The translations under genes and the position numbers were made by a program. 35,084 bases of DNA from Parcubacteria group bacterium RIFCSPLOWO2_01_FULL_48_18 (GTDB taxonomy: Bacteria > Patescibacteriota > Minisyncoccia > UBA6257 > WO2-01-48-18): the NCBI GenBank assembly GCA_001824435.1, contig MHXH01000023.1, positions 1-35,084 of the forward strand, written 5' to 3'. The notes beneath the pieces were generated by a model. The model worked only from the letters and a program-made list of their open reading frames with translations. It made no database searches and had not been told where the DNA came from. Positions 4,046 through 4,126 of this stretch are shown one piece after another. Numbering within the stretch: the first letter of the stretch is position 1; each line of letters begins with the position of its first letter.

Positions 4046-4126
4046 CGAGCTTATTAGCTGATAGCTTCTTAGCTTCTTAGAGAAATAGTTTCTGAAAAGC
4101 TACAAGCTAAAAGCTACAAGCTAAAA
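4046..4126 (+). repeat. Intercistronic hairpin element, copy 1 (rpsF/ssb gap)
   Basis: The element starts directly after the rpsF stop and ends directly at the ssb ATG. It is closely similar to 16961-17044 in the grpE/dnaK gap. Both begin CGAGCTTATTA, continue with TAGCTT units, and end with two CTACAAGCTAAAA units before ATG. The 5' half (AGCTT-type) is complementary to the 3' half (AAGCT-type). The apical part is a separate small palindrome (AGAAATAGTTTCT) that differs in sequence between copies. No Shine-Dalgarno site is present in either copy. Confidence 0.85.

Follow-up and report, generated by a model that had tools for sequence, protein, structure and literature searches.

The window, a stretch of 35,084 nt from the draft genome of Parcubacteria group bacterium RIFCSPLOWO2_01_FULL_48_18 (contig MHXH01000023.1), contains two gene pairs, rpsF–ssb and grpE–dnaK, in which the gap between the upstream stop codon and the downstream ATG is filled by one and the same sequence element. 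The two junctions comprise the following features, where R1 denotes the covariance model described below.

3602–4045, plus strand: rpsF (S6), upstream gene, whose stop codon adjoins the element (Pfam PF01250, E 1.6e-16)
4046–4126, plus strand: junction element rpsF–ssb, complete gap (81 nt; R1 match 4046–4123, E 5.8e-16 on the best strand)
4062–4080, plus strand: octad units TAGCTTCT, 5′ arm of the rpsF–ssb copy (Tandem Repeats Finder)
4095–4126, plus strand: 3′ arm heptads AAGCTAC/AAGCTAA, reaching the ssb ATG (identical to the dnaK copy over 4097–4126)
4127–4567, plus strand: ssb, downstream gene (Pfam PF00436, E 7.7e-39, match from residue 3)
15086–16960, minus strand: dnaK, downstream gene (Pfam PF00012, E 3.3e-248, match from residue 4)
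16961–16996, minus strand: 3′ arm heptads, reaching the dnaK ATG (Tandem Repeats Finder)
16961–17044, minus strand: junction element grpE–dnaK, complete gap (84 nt; R1 match 16964–17043, E 1.8e-15)
17009–17027, minus strand: octad units TAGCTTTT (gene strand), 5′ arm of the grpE–dnaK copy (Tandem Repeats Finder)
17045–17584, minus strand: grpE, upstream gene (Pfam PF01025, E 3.5e-39)

The two gaps align over their whole length, from stop codon to start codon, as a first-pass annotation of the window had proposed. They share 33 identical nucleotides including the ATG (4097–4129 and 16958–16990), that is, 30 nt before each ATG; the identity had been noticed at first pass, with its length given as 29 bases. 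On the gene strand, the element consists of a 5′ arm of tandem octads (TAGCTTCT/TAGCTTTT) and a 3′ arm of heptads (AAGCTAC/AAGCTAA). The arms are predicted to pair through helices of 5–6 bp with small internal loops, and the apical palindrome differs between the ssb and dnaK copies yet pairs in both. Predicted folding energies are −29.9 kcal/mol for the ssb gap and −23.4 kcal/mol for the dnaK gap (z −4.01 and −3.35), and for neither copy did any of 200 shuffles fold as well as the natural gap. Neither gap contains a Shine–Dalgarno site. Self-folding, the differing apical palindromes and the missing Shine–Dalgarno site had all been described before, and each description holds; new are the composition from tandem heptads and octads and the existence of some 25 further copies in the genome.

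A search of the 1.21-Mb source genome with the core pattern AAGCTANAAGCTA gives 38 matches, and one with its reversed control pattern gives none, so the likeness of the ssb and dnaK gaps is not a product of chance. A covariance model (R1), built from 17 copies and searched against the genome up to an E value of 1, finds 27 places on both strands, 24 of them strong (E ≤ 0.01). All but one could be classed by gene calls (the place at C17:65489 has no called gene). Each of these 26 sits between two co-directional genes, with no convergent or divergent case and no copy within a called gene. This distribution agrees with the first-pass suggestion of a repeat duplicated into gene gaps at gene borders. 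At 22 of the 24 strong places, the element finishes about 10 nt or less before the following start codon; at around 20 of the 24, a similarly short distance (within about 10 nt) separates it from the upstream stop, the latter by hand count with small genes identified by eye. The two strong places that end further from a start precede rpsH (83 nt) and ftsX (69 nt), and at both a second hairpin lies between element and start. This second hairpin, CGAGCCTGAGGGCTCTTCAGAGCCCGAATGG, is found near 3140–3240 of locus L015 (rpsH) and near 1460–1530 of locus L018 (ftsX). Our home-made gene caller misses small genes (rpsR, rpsN, rpmJ, rpmI and rplX), which we corrected by reading translations; downstream genes were named from Pfam where it was run and otherwise from their translations.

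The genes downstream of the element are diverse. They include ssb, dnaK, dnaJ, recO (an N-terminal match), fmt, mraY (Glycos_transf_4 family), atpE, ftsX, genes for lysS-like and trpS-like tRNA synthetases, a PrsW protease, a PilM-like protein, a glycosyltransferase, a TraG-like ATPase and a solute-binding protein, and the ribosomal protein genes rpsD, rpsE, rpsH, rpsM, rplE, rplP, rplT, rplV and rpmC. In addition, groEL is preceded by a weak variant of the element (R1 model, E 0.58). No function is common to all of these genes, but translation and chaperone genes are in excess. An element linking ssb and dnaK, the other possibility raised at first pass, does not survive these data, given that about 23 other genes carry the element and that the ssb and dnaK gaps of relatives usually do not; a private ssb–dnaK element is ruled out by the roughly 25 other copies in the genome. 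The first-pass annotation had proposed a covariance-model search for further copies and asked if these always abut start codons: the copies exist, and abutment is the rule at the strong places but not invariable. It had also held that many copies at random intergenic positions and orientations would point to a simple mobile repeat instead of a regulator. The copies are indeed many and lie in both orientations, but their positions are not random.

The exact two-arm pattern occurs in 52 stretches of a collection of 84,980 species (GTDB), which represent about 28 genomes as counted by accession prefixes. Nearly all carriers are Patescibacteria (Moran-, Kuenen-, Azam-, Nealson-, Buchanan-, Portnoy-, Kerfeld-, Doudna- and Nomurabacteria), and the remainder are labelled as Omnitrophota (two) or simply as ‘bacterium’. 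The 52 stretches hold 53 places: 46 co-directional, 3 convergent, 1 divergent and 3 where the contig ends. Two of the convergent places are ssb–rpsR junctions at which the gene caller overlooked rpsR. Within the 46 co-directional gaps, the element lies no more than 30 nt from the start in 37, from the stop in 39 and from both in 30. Of the 41,208 intergenic bases that form the background in these stretches, only 629 belong to co-directional gaps no longer than 30 nt, so uniform intergenic landing would almost never yield the observed positions. A model search of 40 relatives matched five genomes of the same order at 35 places (23 co-directional, 5 at an edge, 4 inside called genes, 2 divergent and 1 convergent); these are weaker matches, and just 15 of the 35 lie within 30 nt on both sides. 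The family is patchy: among 379 genomes of the phylum, a looser form of the pattern occurs in 7, one of which is the source genome. Viral contigs gave no exact match to the pattern.

Some downstream genes recur in other genomes: dnaJ and lysS in relative G001, groEL in relative G011, and rplV, rplT and mraY among the GTDB matches. Downstream genes common to different lineages are rplV, mraY, rplT, dnaJ, lysS-like and groEL (loci L097, L105, L065, L075, L059, L098, L040, L039 and L029). The gene rpsG carries the element in either orientation (same in L056 and L092, inverted in L067). For folding and orientation we used a set of 49 gaps, comprising 17 of the 27 places in the source genome and 32 of the 53 GTDB places; it excludes the lysS copy, gaps of the source genome that were hard to bound, GTDB gaps longer than 140 nt, and edge, convergent and divergent cases. 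Across this set the orientations are balanced, with 25 inverted and 24 in the same orientation.

In small genomes, tight operon junctions are generally regarded as permitting translational coupling, and the junctions that host the element are mostly of this kind in relatives. The rpsF–ssb gap, measurable in 27 of 29 relatives with ssb loci, spans −14 to 10 nt in 15 and 35 to 220 nt in 12. Of 29 relatives, 22 have an rpsC–rplP gap no longer than 15 nt, and the rplP–rpmC gap stays within the same limit in 18 of 25; in the source genome both carry the element, in opposite orientations. The grpE–dnaK gap is less tight in relatives than the other host junctions (30 nt or less in 13 of 27), which counts against insertion into a tight junction, and 3 of its 14 longer versions fold with z < −2. 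Among the 12 long rpsF–ssb gaps, 8 fold with z < −2 (one of them, in L133, trivially), and several are other heptad palindromes that reach the ATG (L117, ATTCGTATCATTCG; L122, ATACTTA; L125, GATCTAG). The rpsC–rplP junction similarly holds other palindromes in place of the element, of ACGAATA type in L192 and of AATTTCTAA type in L180. As junctions free of the element are mostly either tight (−14 to 15 nt) or occupied by other heptad palindromes, the element described here, which we denote the AGCT element, is one family of a wider class of heptad repeats that fill junctions.

Period-7 structure extends to gaps without the AGCT element. In co-directional gaps of 40–250 nt lacking it, self-similarity at lag 7 is 0.358 in the GTDB stretches, compared with about 0.29 in shuffles and at lags 5, 6, 9 and 10 (lag 8, 0.328), and 0.330 in the source genome, compared with 0.257 in shuffles. 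Arrays of period 7 occur in 34 of 106 gaps, those of period 8 in 8, and those of periods 5, 6, 9 and 10 in 1 or 2 each. The signal is weak in unselected ssb and dnaK stretches of relatives (4 of 57 with period-7 arrays), and lag 7 is not raised in two Escherichia coli stretches (0.246, 28 gaps). The period-7 effect is thus strong where such families are present and not universal. Within the window, further families of heptads (AATTTCT and CTAGAAT) lie at 132–309, 2665–2780, 22492, 24939 and 25782, one of them directly upstream of rplU, and a near-perfect palindrome, TATCCCCCGATTCGCGCGAATCGGGGGATA, is present in three copies at 10207, 10650 and 12200. A heptad palindrome, AATTTGG, lies at 9754–9797 inside the lepA frame, where it would insert a short peptide into the protein, and lepA contains a second odd stretch, SSIKDQRLEI. 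A broad generalization, which we consider doubtful though not far-fetched, is that Patescibacteria harbour a wide class of heptad palindromes targeting stop–start junctions, each genome with its own family and unrelated families at orthologous junctions.

Whether the element acts as a structured RNA bears directly on its interpretation. The element gaps fold well, 43 of 49 with z < −2, with a median of 3 unpaired nucleotides after the stop, and 40 of 49 form a single stem, as against 45% of shuffles. Such folds would suit a spacer that preserves coupling, in which an insertion survives within a coupled junction only if its fold keeps stop and start close, and decays elsewhere; the tightness of host junctions in relatives is in line with this, as is the loss of reinitiation coupling in E. 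coli and Haloferax once the distance reaches about 20 nt (PMC10666635). However, the number of unpaired exterior nucleotides from stop to start is no lower than in shuffles (11 versus 12 nt over the 49 gaps), and we dropped the idea that the fold brings stop and start together as evidence, because shuffles do equally well. Nor did we see a field of decayed copies in looser gaps, every one of the 38 core matches being at a listed place. No covariation between the arms was found, which weighs against this explanation. In an arm-swap test, chimeras that join halves of different copies fold no worse than the natural gaps (66 and 17 of 150); with the centre trimmed, rare words of one arm are not matched by extra partners in the other (612 and 682 of 1000); and an apex swap test gives a marginal result (4 of 500 for energy and 151 of 5000 for stem length). 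On these grounds, covariation does not establish selection on RNA structure; the null covariation and a stop–start distance equal to that of shuffles leave selection for an RNA hairpin without support.

The same null result weighs on a second explanation, in which the element is a selected regulatory RNA whose hairpin or heptads bind a protein or are cut, defining a translation or mRNA-stability regulon of translation and chaperone genes. The downstream genes do lend themselves to it, being rich in ribosomal proteins, chaperones (dnaK, dnaJ and, with the weak variant, groEL) and tRNA synthetases, several of which recur elsewhere, and the TAACTGA heptads of Beggiatoaceae sit directly upstream of start codons (PMC4679880). 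A strand-specific RNA signal, however, does not predict equal orientations, and the looser pattern is confined to the 7 genomes of the phylum mentioned above. The lack of a Shine–Dalgarno site in all 49 element gaps would fit this explanation, but such sites are rare in any case (present in 12 and absent in 173 of the 185 background gaps that exceed 15 nt), so their absence is unremarkable. The pattern GGATCACCTCCTTT, the usual anti-Shine–Dalgarno 3′ end of 16S rRNA, is absent from the 16S match and from the draft genome, probably because the 3′ part of the 16S gene is not assembled whole. The 16S rRNA match itself (1243–3082, minus strand) is 1840 nt long with a score of only 575 bits, and the gene may contain an interruption or be cut off by the end of the contig; a 73-nt direct repeat adjoins it (2897–2969 and 3211–3283, 97% identical). 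Against Rfam, no family reached the gathering threshold and only chance-level microRNA models appeared below it, which rules out an Rfam RNA identity; a terminator is ruled out by the position of the element inside operons and by the lack of a following T-run. We judge the regulatory RNA unlikely and the coupling-preserving spacer slightly more so. Far less probable than either is that heptad runs arise anywhere in AT-rich spacers by chance or low-complexity slippage and merely resemble an element. Period-7 runs are frequent in other gaps of the same genomes, in line with this, but other periods are rare (1 to 8 of 106 gaps), the same family of octad and heptad arms occurs in about 28 genomes, and its positions are almost solely stop–start junctions.

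On balance, we favour the reading that the gaps hold a short, non-coding, dispersed inverted repeat that occupies operon stop–start junctions, probably entered as DNA and is a candidate coupling-altering hairpin. The dispersed repeat is probably mobile, entering or surviving at stop–start junctions. By this account, a mobile or copied repeat would insert as DNA into tight junctions. Two results count against this account: the source genome (a 96% complete draft) contains no match to the REP-associated Y1 transposase PF01797, for which a control search was positive in 5 of 14 known genomes, and no same-species polymorphic empty site was seen, the closest genomes compared belonging to the same order. 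Near the end of a gene, the element would itself supply the stop, and its far end would leave a short A/U-rich start region. In either orientation, the arm beside the upstream gene presents TAG at 7- or 8-nt spacing and so covers all three frames within about 18 nt. TAG is the upstream stop of 24 of the 49 element gaps, a larger share than in the background (126 of 455), and in 11 of these 24 it opens a TAGCTT that is part of the element. The exact 5′ border thus partly reflects the ability of the arm to supply a TAG stop in any frame.

In the mRNA, the element would form a predicted intercistronic hairpin ahead of a start without a Shine–Dalgarno site, and may thereby alter the coupling of the two genes. 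In E. coli and Haloferax, a stop-to-start distance of about 20 nt nearly abolishes reinitiation (PMC10666635), and structure after the stop limits it (PMC7518266). The simplest expectation from these reports is that the element would loosen coupling. Such insulation, as by a ribosome termination structure, seems a more likely outcome than joint regulation of ssb and dnaK.

Several known repeats share some of these properties. REP/BIME and ERIC/RU sequences are short, non-coding palindromic repeats that are present in many copies, intergenic and transcribed, and the element likewise is a palindromic extragenic repeat in many copies (27 places on both strands, none in a called gene). In contrast to REP/BIME with RAYT, it resides in a genome without the Y1 transposase, has AT-rich heptad arms and lies almost solely at tight junctions. 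Ordinary small repeats are not known to follow the positional rule seen here, with a stop on one side and a start on the other. STRR sequences of cyanobacteria are short tandemly repeated repetitive heptanucleotide arrays in intergenic DNA, a feature in common with the element; they are not known as stop-to-start fillers with paired arms, which sets them apart. In a comparison with MITEs, the relevant feature is that the arms of the element are inverted repeats.

The TAACTGA heptamers of marine Beggiatoaceae (MacGregor 2015, PMC4679880) are dispersed direct repeats in one favoured orientation that do not fold. Like these, the element consists of dispersed heptads that end a few nucleotides before a start (within about 10 nt at 22 of the 24 strong places), with few Shine–Dalgarno sites, at ribosomal protein genes among others and with a patchy distribution between phyla. 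Unlike them, its unit is AAGCTAC/TAGCTTCT, its octad and heptad arms form an inverted repeat that folds and occurs in two orientations, and it fills the gap from stop to start. A ribosome termination structure (PMC7518266) is a stable fold of operon mRNA immediately behind a stop codon, and the element gaps resemble it in their predicted stable structure directly downstream of the stop. Such a structure is a property of ordinary sequence, however, whereas the element is a repeat dispersed through the genome and reaches the following start with its other end. The element belongs with the small dispersed intergenic repeats, outside both REP/BIME and the TAACTGA group. No published account of such repeats in Patescibacteria was found in a search of open-access journal papers.

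If the wide class of heptad palindromes exists, mobile or copied elements would recognize, or be kept by, the stop–start junction instead of a DNA sequence, and coupled gene pairs would have been turned into hairpin-separated ones across a major bacterial branch. Lineage-specific junction repeats would then represent a recurrent rewiring of translational coupling in Patescibacteria, and may account for many of the odd AT-rich spacers in their genomes.
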